Shown one piece after another: positions 13,659 to 37,263 of a stretch of DNA of 64,000 bases (positions within the stretch are counted from its first letter, which is position 1; the number at the start of each line of letters is the position of its first letter). A model generated the notes under the pieces. The model searched no databases. It was given only the letters and a program-made list of their open reading frames with translations, and was not told the origin of the DNA. Position numbers and translations under genes: made by a program. Location of the stretch: assembly GCA_017429525.1 (NCBI GenBank), contig JAFROT010000010.1:1-64000 (forward strand). The letters are read 5' to 3'. Source of the DNA: Bacteroidaceae bacterium. GTDB taxonomy: Bacteria > Bacteroidota > Bacteroidia > Bacteroidales > Bacteroidaceae.

Positions 13659-13703
13659 ACCACTCATAACGACCCATCATCCACAACAAACAATCACCTT
13701 CAA

Positions 13704-13857
13704 CAACTCGACTATTCGACACGGCTCGGTTGACTAGTCAACTTGACCCACTCGAATAGTCGACTCTGCTTATTCGAATGGTCGCATCTCCTTGCGCGTA
13801 TATACATATCGGCTTGCGCGTATATACGTATCGCCCCACACGAATAGTCGTGCGGGG
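13704..13857. repeat. 22-bp-period intergenic array A
   Basis: Seven contiguous 22-bp units starting at 13704, 13726, 13748, 13770, 13792, 13814 and 13836. Each has a 14-nt core at unit positions 4-17 and an 8-nt linker split around it: cores CTCGACTATTCGAC, GTTGACTAGTCAAC, CTCGAATAGTCGAC, TTCGAATGGTCGCA, CGCGTATATACATA, CGCGTATATACGTA, CACGAATAGTCGTG. Several cores are perfect or near palindromes. Same phase and core style as arrays B and C. Confidence 0.8.
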
Positions 13858-23153: not shown

Positions 23154-23348
23154 GGAGAATGAAGAATGGATGAATGATGAATGAAGAATGATGAATGAAG
23201 AATATTTTCTAGCTCCAAAGAGCTAAGGTAATTTGTATTCTTCATTCTTCATTATTCATTATTCTTCATTCTTCACTCTTCATTATTCGTTCTTCATTCT
23301 TCATTATTCGTTCTTCATTCTTCATTCTCCATTCCATCCTTCATCCTT
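23154..23348. repeat. Long imperfect inverted repeat of GAATGA/TCATTC units
   Basis: Left arm (23154-23205) is made of GAATGAAGAATG-type units, right arm (23236-23348) of CATTCTTCATTATTC-type units; the turn contains a small hairpin TAGCTC CAAA GAGCTA at 23210-23225. It fills the space between the converging CHR and comEC genes and would fold into a long stem in RNA from either strand, probably ending both transcripts. Confidence 0.75.
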
Positions 23349-23357
23349 CCCGAAGGC

Positions 23358-25256
23358 CTACTCCCCTAAGCTCACCCTCATCGCACCCTGTTCTGCGACG
23401 TCGTAGATACGCCACCCCACTCTCCGAGCCTCCTCTGTGAGTGCTGCACGCTGCCAACGAGGCAGGCTTGCATCCAGCACCAACAATTTTGGCTTGTACG
23501 CATCCGTCAGCCAGCCCAAACGCCCGCCGCGGAATCCTCTTACCAGCCACAAGACATCCACCTCCTTACATGCCGCAGGTAGCACCGCCCCCTTCAAACG
23601 AGTCTCTACTGCCCCCTTCAAACGAGTCTCTGCTGTCCCCTTCAAGCGAGTCTCTGCTGCCCCCTTCAAGCGAGTCTCTGCCTCCCCCTCTCCCCGGGTT
23701 GTGTAGGCAGCGACTTTGTCGCTGCCATCATCCTGCCATCCTTCATCACCGCTCCCCTCCCCTATCATCACCGCTTGGAAGGCGCTTCCTGCGCCTTTTA
23801 CCGCTACCGCCATCTGCCCGCGCAGCACCACCGGAGCAGCCGTCAGCCTGCGCCGCCAAAAGCTCTCGGCGATTAACTTCATGCCAACCTCCACTGAGTC
23901 CGGCATAGGCGTCAGCAGCCAGCTACGCTCGGGCGCAGCAATCACATGCAACACCGGGCAGCGGCGATTGTGATAGACCACCACCTGCGGCTCAGCCTTA
24001 CGGCTCCAGAAGTCGTCCACGACAGCCCCAGGCCAACTCACCTCCCAACGCATCAGCGCCAACTGCGCCGTCACCACCCACGTCAGCCCCATAGCCAACA
24101 CACCAGACAATGCCGGCAACACAGCGCTCACCAGCAGCAACACCAAAGCGCCGTAGACCAGCACCATCGTCAGCGGTATCAGCACTAAGTTGAACAAGGG
24201 GGCATAAAGCGAAAAGCGGTGGAAATAGAAAGCTACCAGCGGCAGCGTAGCCAGTTGTGCCGCCAACGACACGGAGAGCAGTTCCAAGGGCCACATCAGA
24301 TGATAGCGCGCCAACCAGAAACATTGGAAGCGCCAGCGCCCATACGCCCAGCGCACCCAACGTCCGTGCAAAGTGATGATTCCCACAACAGCCGCAAACG
24401 ACAGCTGCGCGCCAACATCGAAGAGATAGACTGGCCGCACCATCAGCATCACGAACGCCGTCAGCACAACCAGATTCAACGCGCTGCCGTTTCGCTGCAT
24501 CAGCGAGGCAATGACGAAGAGACTCGTCATCAGCGAAGCTCGAACCAACGAGGTCGGCAGCCCCGCCACGAAGGCGTACGTCCAAATAAAGAGGATCACG
24601 AGCACGCCCACCCACACGCGCCAGCGTGAGCACAACAGCCATCCGTTCAACCACGTGAGGAACATGCCGACGATGATACCCAGATGAAGGCCCGAGAGCG
24701 CCAGCAGATGGCTCACTCCTGCAGACGCATAGAGGTCGCGCGTCTCGCACTGCAGTTGGGAACGGTCGCCCAAGGTGATAGCCGTCACGACAGCCAATGC
24801 CTCATCGTCAAGTCCGGCACGGGCATAGCGAGCCGAAAGCCGATCACGCACCTCTAAAGCGCGATGACGCAAATTTGACAGCACCGACGACGAATCTGCC
24901 GACGACTGCGTCAGCCAGCGCCAACGCCGATAATCGAATTCGTCAGGGTTGCCGCGGTTTACGGGTGGGCGCTCCATCTGTTGCCATTGCGTCTGAACTT
25001 CGTCGGCATAAGCCGCATAGCGGACGAATCCGACTACGGCAAAGAAAACTGCCGTCAGCACGATGAACGATCGTCCTTCTGCTTTCCGTGCCGACCGAGG
25101 ATAGACACTCGCTGCCAACAGCGCGACCAACAAACAACATCCCCATGCGGCCAAGTCAAGCCACACGGGGACGGAATAGCTCTCGTAGAATAATGCGTCA
25201 GCTACAATGATGCCCAGAGCGAGGGACAATGTAGCAAGGAGAATCGGACGGCTCAT
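23358..25256 (-). CDS. comEC: ComEC/Rec2-family DNA-uptake channel protein
   Basis: Polytopic inner-membrane protein of the competence family, 632 residues. The signature GVSHLLALSGLHLGIIVGMF is at about 180-200, within a block of helices running to about 400. Between FVRYAAYADE (about 95) and NPDEFDYRRWRW only about 20 residues remain, so the OB-fold DUF4131 region normally found there is largely missing. No metallo-beta-lactamase domain is present. Near the C-terminus four perfect or near-perfect copies of an 8-residue repeat (AETRLKGA) form a charged linker before the last domain (VDVLWLVRGFRGGRLGWLTD). Whether it still moves DNA is uncertain. Follows rpe by 32 bp. Confidence 0.88.
   Translation of the reverse strand: MSRPILLATLSLALGIIVADALFYESYSVPVWLDLAAWGCCLLVALLAASVYPRSARKAEGRSFIVLTAVFFAVVGFVRYAAYADEVQTQWQQMERPPVNRGNPDEFDYRRWRWLTQSSADSSSVLSNLRHRALEVRDRLSARYARAGLDDEALAVVTAITLGDRSQLQCETRDLYASAGVSHLLALSGLHLGIIVGMFLTWLNGWLLCSRWRVWVGVLVILFIWTYAFVAGLPTSLVRASLMTSLFVIASLMQRNGSALNLVVLTAFVMLMVRPVYLFDVGAQLSFAAVVGIITLHGRWVRWAYGRWRFQCFWLARYHLMWPLELLSVSLAAQLATLPLVAFYFHRFSLYAPLFNLVLIPLTMVLVYGALVLLLVSAVLPALSGVLAMGLTWVVTAQLALMRWEVSWPGAVVDDFWSRKAEPQVVVYHNRRCPVLHVIAAPERSWLLTPMPDSVEVGMKLIAESFWRRRLTAAPVVLRGQMAVAVKGAGSAFQAVMIGEGSGDEGWQDDGSDKVAAYTTRGEGEAETRLKGAAETRLKGTAETRLKGAVETRLKGAVLPAACKEVDVLWLVRGFRGGRLGWLTDAYKPKLLVLDASLPRWQRAALTEEARRVGWRIYDVAEQGAMRVSLGE
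23590..23690. repeat. 24-bp tandem repeat in comEC
   Basis: Four copies of a 24-bp unit containing CCCTTCAA(A/G)CGAGTCTC, encoding AETRLKGA on the minus strand. Copies differ at one to three positions. Confidence 0.85.
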
Positions 25257-26429: not shown

Positions 26430-26453
26430 GTTATTCGGTCGCGACCGAATAAC
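26430..26453. repeat. 24-bp perfect palindrome at the left edge of array B
   Basis: The centre ATTCGGTCGCGACCGAAT extends outward by GTT and AAC to 24 perfectly self-complementary bases. A near-identical copy lies at 36250-36275. Confidence 0.9.
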
Positions 26454-26563
26454 CAACACATATAGATGCTCAGCATTACACATATAGATGTTTAGCGCTA
26501 CACATACAGACATAAAGCGCTTCACATATAGTCGCTCAGCCCGCTACGAACGGATGTATAAGG
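26432..26563. repeat. 22-bp-period intergenic array B
   Basis: Six units starting at 26432, 26454, 26476, 26498, 26520 and 26542. The motif CACATA recurs at exactly 26457, 26479, 26501 and 26523. Cores: TCGGTCGCGACCGA (the palindrome), CACATATAGATGCT, CACATATAGATGTT, CACATACAGACATA, CACATATAGTCGCT, TACGAACGGATGTA. Same unit phase as array C. The remaining bases to 26690 are AT-rich with nothing recognised. Confidence 0.85.
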
Positions 26564-27011: not shown

Positions 27012-27012
27012 A

Positions 27013-27068
27013 GAGAATATAATTATAAAAGAGAATATAATTATAAAAAAGAGAATATAATTATAAAT
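27013..27068. repeat. AT-rich tandem repeat followed by alternating purine-pyrimidine DNA
   Basis: GAGAATATAATTATAAA occurs three times at 27013, 27031 and 27051. It is followed directly (27070-27104) by GTACGCGTGTACGTTCGCGC and ATGCGCGCGC, mostly alternating purine and pyrimidine. The stretch 27012-27420 otherwise holds the susC promoter and leader. Confidence 0.75.
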
Positions 27069-34284: not shown

Positions 34285-36015
34285 ATGAGAAAATTACTAC
34301 TCCTGGGCTTGCTTGCCACTGCCATTACTGCTTCGGCAGAGAAGCGGAGCTTGAGTGAACTGCAACAGATGGCTGACAGCCACTTCGCACAGACGGCCGA
34401 CGTCAAAGGCATGACAGCCAAAGGCGCAGCGCTGACACCACACGCACAGCTGGCATACGAGGATGACGCGCTGGCTGCGTTCGACGACGCCGACCATGGC
34501 GCCTTCGTGCTGCTCTCCAAGAGCGACCGCACCGAGGCCGTCGTAGGTTACGCCGACAGAGCATTCCCAAAAGCGAACATGCCTACAGACCTGCAATGGT
34601 TCATAGCCACCGTAGGGCGAAATATTACCGAGGCTGAGAGGTGCGGCACAGACCTCACCACCACCAGACGCCGCGCTCAAGGGCGCACAGCTGTGGAGCC
34701 CTTCGTAACGACGCTCTGGCATCAGGCCGACCCCTTCAACATGCTCACGCCATACAACCACCCCGCAGGATGCGTCGCTGTGGCCATGGCACAATGCATA
34801 AACTATTGCCGATACCCCAGCAGCGTGAACTTCAGAGGCTACTGCTACGCCGGCGAGACTGCAACAAGCGGGCGCCTCAAGCTCGACTCCCTCGACATAA
34901 AAGGCATCTATTTCTACCCGTTCCTTGATATGTACGGACGCGCTAAAGAGAGCCAGAAAAAGAGCGTGGCCACACTCGTGCGCGACTGCGGATACGCCAC
35001 CTACATGCAATATGCCAAAGACGGCAGCGGCACTTATACGTACCAGGCTGGCATCGCCATGACGACGATCTTCGGCTACCCTGAGGAGAGCATTAAGTAT
35101 GCCGAGCGCTACTGCTTCGGAGGCTCGCAGGACGACTGGAACGACATCATCTACGACGAGATGGAACGGCGCTCGCCCATCATCTACGCCGCACAGGACT
35201 CCACAAGCGGAGGTCATGCCTTCGTATTCTGCGGACTCGATGCCGAAGGCCTTGTCTATGTCAACTGGGGCTGGGGCGGCGACGGCGACGGATTCTATGA
35301 CATCACGCTGCTCGACCCTCCGGGCATGAGCTTCAATTTCGGACATGACATGGTCTATGGCATTCGCTCCAAAGCACTTCCCACCGACAAGCGCCAGCCA
35401 CGAATCTACTCATACGACGGGATGCCCTACACCTTCAATTTCGCCAAGGAGACGGGCGACGACGGCAAAGAGCACGTGGCGCTGCACATTACGTTCAATG
35501 CTGGTATGTACAACCAGTCGCCTGTGACGATGGACGGGGAATTCGGACTCTTCGGCACAGACCTCACCACGGGCAAAGCCTGGCAGATTCGTGAGACCGA
35601 CGCCGACACATGGGCACCTGGCGTAGGCTATTTCCTGCGCGAACCCACAGCGCTCTACTACTACTACGTGGAGAACGACCTTATTCCCGGACATAAGTAC
35701 CGCATCAGCTTCGGCAGCCGCGATAAGATTGAAAACGAGTGGCACAGCATCATTTGTGCCGATGGCGAAGTGGGCTACGAGATTGACTACACCGGCGATG
35801 CCGAGACGACGACGGTGTCTGAACGCATGCAGCCACTCTACGACGGCATAGGCTCTATCAGCACTGAAGACAAAGCCACCACCACCCGCGTCTTCGACAC
35901 CACCGGAAGACTCATCTACTCCTGCCCCACCCCACAGTTCAACTTATGGGACGTTCCCGCTCATGGCATCTTGGTCATAAAAGAAGGCGACAGCGTGCGC
36001 AAAGTGATACACTGA
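34285..36015 (+). CDS. Secreted C10-family cysteine peptidase (streptopain/interpain-like)
   Basis: Papain-fold endopeptidase with a prodomain, 576 residues. Signal peptide 1-18 (LLLLGLLATAITASA); inhibitory prodomain about 20-135; catalytic domain from about 136. Catalytic Cys163 in PAGCVAVAMAQ and His311 in GGHAFVFCG, with NWGWGG (from N327) completing the site as in streptopain and interpain A. After the catalytic domain comes a beta-rich region to about 520 and a C-terminal end RVFDTTGRLIYSCPT of the secretion-tail type. HAFV is followed by F-C-G where interpain-type enzymes usually have D-G; the effect is unknown. Cys/His are intact, so probably active. Placed right behind the SusCD operon. 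Confidence 0.92.
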   Translation: MRKLLLLGLLATAITASAEKRSLSELQQMADSHFAQTADVKGMTAKGAALTPHAQLAYEDDALAAFDDADHGAFVLLSKSDRTEAVVGYADRAFPKANMPTDLQWFIATVGRNITEAERCGTDLTTTRRRAQGRTAVEPFVTTLWHQADPFNMLTPYNHPAGCVAVAMAQCINYCRYPSSVNFRGYCYAGETATSGRLKLDSLDIKGIYFYPFLDMYGRAKESQKKSVATLVRDCGYATYMQYAKDGSGTYTYQAGIAMTTIFGYPEESIKYAERYCFGGSQDDWNDIIYDEMERRSPIIYAAQDSTSGGHAFVFCGLDAEGLVYVNWGWGGDGDGFYDITLLDPPGMSFNFGHDMVYGIRSKALPTDKRQPRIYSYDGMPYTFNFAKETGDDGKEHVALHITFNAGMYNQSPVTMDGEFGLFGTDLTTGKAWQIRETDADTWAPGVGYFLREPTALYYYYVENDLIPGHKYRISFGSRDKIENEWHSIICADGEVGYEIDYTGDAETTTVSERMQPLYDGIGSISTEDKATTTRVFDTTGRLIYSCPTPQFNLWDVPAHGILVIKEGDSVRKVIH

Positions 36016-36040: not shown

Positions 36041-36081
36041 AAGAATGACGGAAAGGTTTTATCCTTTTCGTCATTCTTTAT
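36041..36081 (+). terminator. Intrinsic terminator of the C10 peptidase gene
   Basis: AAGAATGACGGAAAGG, loop TTTTAT, CCTTTTCGTCATTCTT: 16 pairs including one G-T, then TTATT. Confidence 0.8.
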
Positions 36082-36098
36082 TCATTATTCATTATTCG

Positions 36099-36274
36099 TC
36101 ATTCAAACATTCGCATCACCTTACGCGAATGGTCGTATCGCTTTTCACATATAGACGTAAAGCCAAGAACGACTACTCGTAAAGACCTTAATATACAGAA
36201 GTAAAGCTCTGAACATATAGACGCAAAGCTCCTCACATCTATATGCATTCGTTGTTCGGTCGCGACCGAATAAC
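36099..36274. repeat. 22-bp-period intergenic array C
   Basis: Eight contiguous units starting at 36099, 36121, 36143, 36165, 36187, 36209, 36231 and 36253, with no phase slip. Cores (unit positions 4-17): TTCAAACATTCGCA, CGCGAATGGTCGTA, CACATATAGACGTA, AACGACTACTCGTA, AATATACAGAAGTA, AACATATAGACGCA, CACATCTATATGCA, TCGGTCGCGACCGA. The linker after the core is most often AAGC(C/T). Lies between the converging C10 peptidase and sigma-factor genes in the gene-free stretch 36016-36669. Confidence 0.88.
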
Positions 36275-36275
36275 G
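36250..36275. repeat. Palindrome at the right edge of array C
   Basis: 26 bp with 12 of 13 pairs complementary, sharing TTCGGTCGCGACCGAATAAC exactly with the palindrome at 26430-26453. Confidence 0.9.
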
Positions 36276-36440
36276 AAGTTCTCTATATCAATTCACCATT
36301 TCCTACAGTCAACTTGCCCTGCACGACCAGAGCATTCTCCACGGTCGGCCCGTCGACCGACCTCCGTCCTCTTCCCACGACTTTTTCGATTCCTATACGC
36401 CCTTACGCGCGCACGCGCACGTAAAAATTTTTGCGAGCAC

Positions 36441-36542
36441 CTACACTTTAGCACTCTTTTATGCACATTAGCTTGATTAGCAATGGAATAATCACATCAA
36501 AAACGGTGTAGTTAGGGTGTAGTTTATAGTGCTAAAGTGTAG
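36441..36542. repeat. 14-bp inverted repeat with GTGTAGTT direct repeats
   Basis: CTACACTTTAGCAC at 36441-36454 and its exact complement GTGCTAAAGTGTAG at 36529-36542 are 74 bp apart. GTGTAGTT is present at 36506, 36517 and 36537. Just upstream, 36405-36435, is CG-alternating DNA ending in the palindromic AAAAATTTTT. No coding sequence recognised between here and 36669. Confidence 0.75.
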
Positions 36543-36669
36543 TTTGAGCCTTGAATACGACAAAAATATCATCAAAAACAGGCAAATCTCTTCAAATGTC
36601 GTTCAAAAATCTCTTACTGATTCTATACAACGCGAATTCGTCGTTCACCAATCGAGCATCAGTCATTCC

Positions 36670-37263
36670 TTATGCATCCAAGAGCGTCAGGTCTTTGCCT
36701 ACCGCCATCTTGCGAAGATTGATAACGGCATAACGCATGCGCCCAAGGGCTGTATTAATGCTGCAGTTAGTCGCTTCAGCTATCTCCTTGAACGGACGGT
36801 CATCATAGATGCGCATCTTCACGACTTCCTGTTGCGACTCAGGCAGGAGATCAATCATTCGTTCGAGGTCAGAGATGGTTTGGTTGTTATGCATCTCATG
36901 CTCGATGCTATCTTCTGAAAGCGAAATGGAGTTCATCAGTCGATGGCGCTCTGTCTCGTCGGCAACGTCTATATAAGGACGATTATGGCGCACAGTGTCG
37001 ATAATCTGATTGCGAGCTATACGCATAATCCAAGCCTGAAACTTCCCGTTCTCCGTATAACGATGGGCACGAATGTAAGAGATGACCTTGAAGAAAGTCT
37101 CTTGGAAGATATCATTAGCCATGTCCTCGTCGTGGACGAGGGCCAAGATATAGGAAAATAATGTGTGCTGGTGCCGCTCGAGCAGAACGTCGAACGCCGC
37201 ATCATTGCCATTTTCGTAGAGTTGGATGAGTTGCTCATCAGTCTCCGTTTGCAGGTTGTGCAT
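36670..37263 (-). CDS. ECF-type RNA polymerase sigma factor
   Basis: 197-residue sigma-70 family factor with regions 2 and 4 only. Region 2: AFDVLLERHQHTLFSYILALVHDEDMANDIFQETFFKV and FQAWIMRIARNQIIDTVR; region 4: LERMIDLLPESQQEVVKMRIYDDRPFKEIAEATNCSINTALGRMRYAVINLRK. No anti-sigma gene follows, so it may be a stand-alone ECF. The long linker between regions (YIDVADETERHRLMNSISLSEDSIEHEMH) is as in the Bacteroidota RpoE-like group. It faces the SusCD-peptidase genes convergently; a regulatory link is possible but not shown. Confidence 0.92.
   Translation of the reverse strand: MHNLQTETDEQLIQLYENGNDAAFDVLLERHQHTLFSYILALVHDEDMANDIFQETFFKVISYIRAHRYTENGKFQAWIMRIARNQIIDTVRHNRPYIDVADETERHRLMNSISLSEDSIEHEMHNNQTISDLERMIDLLPESQQEVVKMRIYDDRPFKEIAEATNCSINTALGRMRYAVINLRKMAVGKDLTLLDA

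Follow-up and report, generated by a model that had tools for sequence, protein, structure and literature searches.

The window analysed here is a stretch of 64,000 nucleotides (positions 1 to 64,000, forward strand) of contig JAFROT010000010.1 from a Bacteroidaceae bacterium (assembly GCA_017429525.1). Within it, a plus-strand gene at 34285..36015, whose product belongs to the peptidase C10 family and carries a Spi inhibitor domain (Pfam PF01640 and PF13734), converges with a minus-strand gene for an ECF-type sigma factor at 36670..37263 (PF04542 and PF08281). Between them lies array C, which a first-pass annotation described as eight diverged units following each other at exactly 22 bp without a slip. 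The sequence and a register print agree with that description at 36098-36273, and the three core sequences cited as examples, like the AAGC-type linker, are as claimed. The array begins 82 bp beyond the stop codon of the peptidase gene. Array C proper comprises seven diverged, quasi-palindromic 22-bp units (36098..36251, unstranded; n=7 and S=87 in a profile scan, and seen also in the register print), followed by an eighth unit, TTGTTCGGTCGCGACCGAATAA (36252..36273, unstranded), a palindrome standing at phase 0 to the array. Heptamer repeats of the AGAATGA / ATTCTTC / ATTCATT type are found at 23156-23349 and again at 36067-36105, where they adjoin array C.

Two other arrays lie in the window. 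Array A consists of seven units in a 22-bp register with convergent genes on either side (13703..13856, unstranded), as judged from the register print and from the profile scan, which accepts only the last five of the units (13747-13856). Array B has five in-register units (26453..26562, unstranded; S=78 in the profile scan) and ends in a palindrome unit, TTATTCGGTCGCGACCGAATAA, at phase 0 (26431..26452, unstranded). The three arrays give the best lag-22 match scores in 132-bp windows (84 for A, 75 for C, and 73 for B; the next best is 56) against a background of mean 33.0 and standard deviation 6.4. The window also contains a 24-bp repeat, GCCCCCTTCAAACGAGTCTCTGCT, present 4.3 times at 23587-23689 within a gene with the Pfam Competence domain (23361-25256), the period being a multiple of three, and three copies of an AT-rich repeat of 18-20 bp, AGAGAATATAATTATAAAA, at 27012-27067, upstream of a gene encoding a TonB-dependent receptor.

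The lag-22 period was sought in four whole contigs of the source genome (831,733 bp, or 25% of the 3,296,226 bases of G000), using 110-bp windows and a cut-off of at least 54 matches of 110. Lag 22 gave 44 windows at this cut-off and 28 at a cut-off of at least 62, whereas the comparison lags 19, 20, 23, 25, and 26 gave 0, 1, 1, 3, and 2. Lags 21, 24, and 14 are raised as well (33, 28, and 19 windows), the first two because of the codon periodicity of coding DNA and the last because of heptamer repeats. When the scan is confined to the 179 noncoding pieces longer than 160 bp in the same contigs, a lag-22 window is found in 36 of them, compared with 9 for lag 21, 6 for lag 24, and 0-1 for lags 19, 20, 23, 25, and 26. 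Twenty dinucleotide-preserving shuffles of the noncoding pieces produced no lag-22 window at the cut-off (the maximum reached was 52). The distances between cores matching CRWNYRNWYG tell the same story, with 123 pairs at 22 bp, 107 at 44, 78 at 66, and so on down to 4 at 264, against about 1.2 pairs per distance elsewhere (8 at the most). A profile scan of the four contigs delimited 37 array segments of two to eight units each, and its reversed-sequence control gave no segment at the cut-off used (three at the two lowest cut-offs tried). Slips in register do occur, as at C2:90449/90516 of G000 and at locus L218. The excess over shuffled intergenic DNA is thus present, and the first-pass observation is confirmed as real and as larger than stated.

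With genes called on the four contigs by a simple caller of our own, 35 of the 37 array segments overlap no gene and so are intergenic; the two that do overlap called genes may owe this to wrong start codons. The arrays of G000 lie mostly between convergent genes. Among the 36 with both neighbours called, 20 have convergent neighbours, 11 co-directional, and 5 divergent, compared with a background of 66 convergent spacers in 489 (length-weighted binomial p = 4e-6). Three relatives with fewer arrays show no clear tail-to-tail bias, convergent placement accounting for 2 of 7 typed arrays in G052, 3 of 11 in G015, and 1 of 5 in G011. No Pfam family recurs beside arrays among 52 scanned neighbour proteins, drawn from a list of 55 that excluded short genes and genes cut by the border of a stretch. 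A linked partner gene was rejected on these grounds, and the absence of a recurrent family fits a factor acting in trans.

The first-pass annotation was right about the units and register of array C but not in treating the array as an object of 176 bp standing by itself. Array C forms one end of a dispersed composite of about 0.5 kb, whose copy in the window lies on the minus strand and extends to about 36610. The composite occurs in about a dozen copies, with array units on one side of the palindrome ATTCGGTCGCGACCGAAT and similarity continuing on the other side. There, copies aligned on the palindrome share six further units, not repeats of one another but in the 22-bp register (36274..36405, minus strand), followed by an alternating purine-pyrimidine tract, ACGCGCGCACGCGCACGT (36405..36422, unstranded), around which the length of the copies varies. 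Next comes a perfect inverted repeat of 15 bp with a 72-bp spacer, its left arm, CTACACTTTAGCACT, on the plus strand (36441..36455) and its right arm, AGTGCTAAAGTGTAG, on the minus strand (36528..36542). The arms are visible in most of the aligned copies and altered in some; GTGCTAAAGTGTAG, in the region of the right arm, is present in all 11. The outer end (36543..36610, unstranded) was placed by blastn of 36099-36700 against the other copies, which put the boundary anywhere from 36579 to 36610, depending on the copy. The leader-like part of the composite is found at 7 array loci (one of them partial), as against the 37 array segments of the four contigs, and its outer part is matched in 4 of the genus's 139 genomes, weakly so in two.

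The 11 aligned copies, ten from G000 and one from its close relative G130, differ from their own consensus by 297 substitutions and no gaps over the 176 phased columns, compared with 800 substitutions and 27 gaps in noncoding DNA aligned between G000 and G130. Constraint on insertions and deletions was considered as proof of helical phasing but dropped, since the copies compared pairwise show 17 gaps in 2313 substitutions and since 66 bp of the composite outside the phased part likewise keep a constant length, in all 8 copies that have both anchors. Evolution without gaps is therefore not specific evidence for helical phase.

Two unrelated palindromes lie in phase with the arrays. The 18-mer ATTCGGTCGCGACCGAAT has 32 copies in the genome with at most 2 mismatches, 20 of them exact; the copy forming the core of array C's eighth unit, GTTCGGTCGCGACCGAAT (36254-36271), differs from this commonest form by 1. 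A palindrome of 24 bp, GGTGGATCACCATGGTGATCCACC, has 14 copies with at most 3 mismatches (G000:C2:115322, C5:88018, C23:60185, C26:64646, C26:117934, and 9 further places). The reversed control contains no copy of either. Every copy listed for the four contigs, 10 of the first type and 5 of the second, is centred at phase 0 to the adjoining array, and 4 of the 5 copies of GGTGGATCACCATGGTGATCCACC are flanked on both sides by in-phase array segments. Some of these palindromes are copies descended from one ancestral composite, so the 15 cases are not independent events. In the genome G020, of another species, the 18-bp palindrome is itself a tandem 22-bp unit (L195, L198, L201).

The first-pass annotation expected the period to persist in relatives, and it does, both by matches to a model of the unit and by lag-22 arrays in such genomes as G052 and G123. 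The model, R1, captures three units by sequence only. Within the genus, stricter filters leave it with matches in 31 of 139 genomes, in a patchy distribution, and of 295 genomes of the order it matches the source genome alone. A purely sequence-based definition of the family fails, however, as G052 and G011, both negative for R1, carry lag-22 arrays of other sequence. In G052, 8 lag-22 windows were found in 197,640 bp, with TCAACGTGTTGA or CAACACGTTG as the unit. Copies of TCAACGTGTTGA number 138 in G052, 74 in G074, and 56 in G008, three genomes without an R1 match, and 0-3 in the other 136; any copy at all is found in 48 of the 139. A number of the places listed for G074 and G008 are 22 bp apart. 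The arrays of G011 are of several kinds (e.g., CTTAACGTGTTAAGTCGG), and the units are GCATGGTCATGC in G010 and TCACTCGAGTCA in G123.

The pitch stays constant through these changes of word. Pooled sequence from genomes of the genus (510,673 bp, G000 excluded, not chosen for arrays) gave 25 windows at lag 22, a few of them simple repeats or coding, against 0, 1, 1, 1, and 1 at lags 19, 20, 23, 25, and 26 and 9, 12, and 10 at lags 14, 21, and 24. There was no lag-22 window in the 10-40 kb sampled from each of G003, G049, G129, G127, and G083. In two other genera of the family (230 kb), 7 windows were found at lag 22, 4 at lag 21, and 0-1 at lags 23-26; the period of some of the seven is blurred between 21 and 22, so the extension of the pitch to the family is tentative. 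Two loci of another genus of the family, L238 and L239 (G197), have tandem copies of AAAGCCCGCCG with runs of T at 21-22 bp and look like terminators. Ten other families of the order (210,706 bp) gave no window at lag 22 and 5, 5, and 7 at lags 21, 23, and 24; one of the five lag-23 windows reaches 60 matches, and the loci include L140 near 154 (G026). A pattern of two units, searched over genome contigs, was found in six stretches, all in assemblies of uncultured Bacteroidales or Bacteroidaceae. One of these comes, by its title, from the reticulum of a roe deer; the others have RUG names, which we take to denote rumen genomes.

The profile of the unit in G000 is approximately SCTWYRCRWMY/RKWYGYRWAGS, with most of its information in the inverted C..G and the central YR step. 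The profile was built from both strands and so is symmetric by construction. In a one-stranded alignment, though, 61.9% of the cells pair about the centre of the unit, and pairing falls to 23-47% if the partner is shifted by 1-3 columns. The consensus is therefore palindromic and its symmetry real, although individual units do not covary. The commonest half-sites of in-register cores are CGTAT, CATAT, CGTCT, CGAAT, CGAAC, CGTCC, and CGACC. The palindromy of single units and of arrays is modest: the best 7-pair score of the array consensus in G000 is 4.79, compared with 4.05 after shuffling, and just 3 of the 34 arrays reach p<=0.05. Strong palindromes form a minority. A motif-free scan for them found 6 triples at a spacing of 22 and 0-2 at other spacings, but for pairs it found 3 at 22 and 7 at 44. 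The triplets at 22 bp include perfect or near-perfect palindromes such as ATTCCATCATGATGGAAT and GACCCATGCGCATGGGTC. Palindromes of this quality, in about three copies spaced exactly 22 bp apart, lie in L036 near 416 (G000:C2:164416), L043 near 8238 (C5:108238), L068 near 14645 (C26:234645), and L069 near 10359 (C26:250359). What emerges is an arrangement of palindromic half-sites at a helically phased pitch, as in an array of operators bound by dimers.

The first-pass annotation offered either selection on spacing, as for a row of DNA-binding sites on one face of the helix, or copying by unit, and each has support: copying by the resemblance of neighbouring units and their separate homogenisation in a close relative (see below), spacing by the in-phase palindromes and the constant pitch. 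Our tentative first choice, which we hold with not quite even confidence, combines the two. The arrays would be intergenic minisatellites that grow by the copying of units and are kept in phase by a putative dimeric, probably cooperative factor with a specificity peculiar to the species. Each 22-bp unit would be a degenerate palindrome offering two half-sites (in this genome, C-R-W-M-Y facing R-K-W-Y-G) to one dimer of the DNA-binding factor. Dimers on adjacent units may touch, as a pitch of 22 bp, about two helical turns, would place them on one face of the helix. From the species-specific words at a constant pitch, we infer that the specificity of the factor shifts between species and drags the sequences of the sites along. 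The arrays would probably serve as roadblocks or insulators between transcription units. Several observations count against this reading: arrays come and go between species, slips in register occur, the convergent bias is unclear in three relatives, the palindromy is modest, several genomes of the genus gave no lag-22 window in the 10-40 kb sampled from each, and the in-phase palindromes are partly of common descent.

It is also quite possible, on the evidence, that the arrays are selfish or neutral repeats, akin to minisatellites or MITEs, which spread with the help of a transposase and lengthen by slippage or unequal exchange, the pitch being a by-product of the copying of whole units. Local copying does take place, as neighbouring units are more alike (69.7% identity) than units of different arrays (50.8%). 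In G130, five of the six arrays examined, all with alignable neighbours, share a spacer with an array of G000; at the sixth, synteny appears to be broken. These loci were preselected for arrays, and L193 was left out because its flanks match two places. The units in the shared spacers have been homogenised separately, for example to CGAATATACG in G000 and CGTATATACG in G130 at one site. Comparison with four other species gave 31 arrays with a matching neighbour and 4 loci with both neighbours together; each of these 4 syntenic spacers has an array in the other species of the genus, and at none of them does G000 have one by its own profile. The sharing with G130, the separate homogenisation, and the absences relative to other species indicate that arrays are inherited, turned over by copying, and gained and lost. 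The dispersed composite with its inverted repeat would also be at home among selfish elements. Two side observations concern rearrangement and origin. The left flank of L193 (G130:C203) matches G000:C26:143149-144759 and its right flank matches L085 of G000, perhaps through recombination between composite copies or through misassembly. An array in G015 (L129:9800-10330) ends in a core-like sequence that in G000 lies without an array at the 3' end of a conserved gene (C23:20880-21110) and could be an array seed.

An element of just this kind has been described in Porphyromonas gingivalis. BrickBuilt, the closest published system among those compared, is presented in excerpts of its description (PMC4596501) as a MITE/minisatellite of 19 dispersed copies, always intergenic, made of tandem 23-nt units without spacers that are imperfect within and between elements, with a leader, a tail, and IS5-like terminal inverted repeats. 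According to the same excerpts, its BLASTn matches were in P. gingivalis alone, with homologues in P. gulae genomes. To judge from that account, the likeness extends to the order (Bacteroidales), the short, imperfect, spacer-free tandem units, and the intergenic, dispersed location. It does not extend to the length of the unit (lag 23 gives 1 window here, lag 22 gives 44), to the quasi-palindromic form, the abundance (37 segments per quarter genome), or the pitch common to species with unrelated units. As far as the excerpts go, the structure may differ too: BrickBuilt has a leader, a tail, and terminal inverted repeats (GAGACC...), and the composite here has a one-sided leader-like part and the internal inverted repeat of 15 bp. 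Excerpts of the same paper mention tandem direct repeats of 22, 23, and 41 nt in P. gingivalis W83 (PMC4596501), the first sharing order and unit length with the arrays, a likeness by description only.

What selfish spread leaves unexplained on its own is a single pitch for unrelated units across species, and foreign palindromes phased with arrays on both sides; copying of units alone accounts for neither. Nor do transposases of the Y1 type (PF01797) clearly track the arrays. They were found in 10 of 28 genomes, 6 of 12 that are rich in arrays and 4 of 16 without an R1 match, and the source genome itself has only a marginal match. A RAYT partner was set aside for this reason.

A pitch that stays constant while sequence changes, and the runs of near-identical units seen inside arrays, would also be expected if an enzyme advanced in 22-bp steps and copied units irrespective of their sequence, the palindromy being what the enzyme binds. 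We consider this improbable. Arrays A and C and the composite contain strongly diverged units that keep register and bear no visible mark of recent copying, and no such enzyme was found.

Slightly less probable still is that the arrays act at the level of RNA, as strings of hairpins in 3' untranslated regions that would serve as bidirectional terminators or stabilise mRNA. The tail-to-tail placement in G000 and the inverted repeats suit this idea, but the compensatory covariation expected of hairpins is lacking. The share of paired cells, 61.9%, does not exceed that obtained with reshuffled halves (62.4%), and half-versus-half identity is 5.59 of 11 compared with 5.51 (standard deviation 0.26) when halves are exchanged between arrays; by position, the centre and the third agree above expectation and the second below. 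Halves that do not covary argue against a hairpin of RNA or DNA and fit two half-sites on double-stranded DNA. Rfam covariance models gave no match at gathering level in the window and three sub-threshold ones at the locus of array C. Pair counts, the swapping of halves, and Rfam together led us to reject the hairpin reading. As for chance or an artefact of assembly, the absence of any lag-22 piece in 20 shuffles and the recurrence of arrays in the same spacers of the close relative leave next to nothing in its favour.

The first-pass annotation knew of no named family with such a layout, and comparison with REP elements, BrickBuilt, and CRISPR bears this out, as none fits. Nor did the open-licence literature yield, among the matches listed, any description of phased arrays of 22-bp palindromes in the group. 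REP and BIME elements, in the excerpted accounts (PMC3733652, PMC2817692), are palindromic and intergenic, favour convergent or co-directional genes, and form species-specific families. The same excerpts describe stem-loops tagged with GTAG or CGTC, frequently paired head to head or tail to tail across spacers of varying length, and frequent clusters in GTAG families (PMC3733652, PMC2817692); CGTC repeats show no association with transposase genes (PMC3733652, in part). On the strength of these excerpts, the arrays resemble REPs in palindromy, in intergenic placement according to gene orientation, and in being specific to species, but they tile gaplessly at 22 bp, show none of the covariation of hairpins (61.9% vs 62.4%), and have no tag, a one-sided GTAG or CGTC being judged from the printed units only, since the profile is symmetric by construction. 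They may differ from REP/RAYT systems, as excerpted, also in that Y1 transposase genes do not clearly track them. The difference from CRISPR is that the arrays have no unique spacers; the entire 22-bp unit follows the profile.

The preferred reading, a phased row of sites for a dimeric factor, has its nearest parallels elsewhere. Plasmid iterons and centromere arrays such as parC or tubC line up binding sites for a protein at a constant interval of one or two turns of the helix, each at a single locus beside the gene of its own protein. The arrays are like them as rows of putative sites at fixed pitch, and unlike them in being spread over dozens of places on the chromosome, with no family recurring among the neighbours.

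A bolder form of the preferred reading, which we think possible but on the unlikely side, holds that in one bacterial lineage the chromosome carries a fixed ruler of 22 bp on which words can be exchanged. Related dimeric proteins would sit side by side on phased intergenic slots, and the word would switch from species to species at a constant architecture, much as restriction-modification or PRDM9-like systems change what they recognise. Since different words can share one array, several paralogues would have to assemble together.

Sequence is the usual criterion by which short extragenic repeats are defined. In these arrays, it is the spacing that is invariant, and one sequence can replace another from species to species and even inside a single array. 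In the sampled contigs, 36 of the 179 longer noncoding pieces, roughly one in five, contain such arrays. Should the pitch be imposed by a protein, the arrays would represent a chromosome-wide system of phased binding in a little-studied lineage; should it come from a copying mechanism, they would point to a copier of 22-bp units that is indifferent to sequence. The dialects of the sites may offer a genetic handle, as the factor should differ between species with TATA-type sites and those with sites of the TCAACGTGTTGA type.
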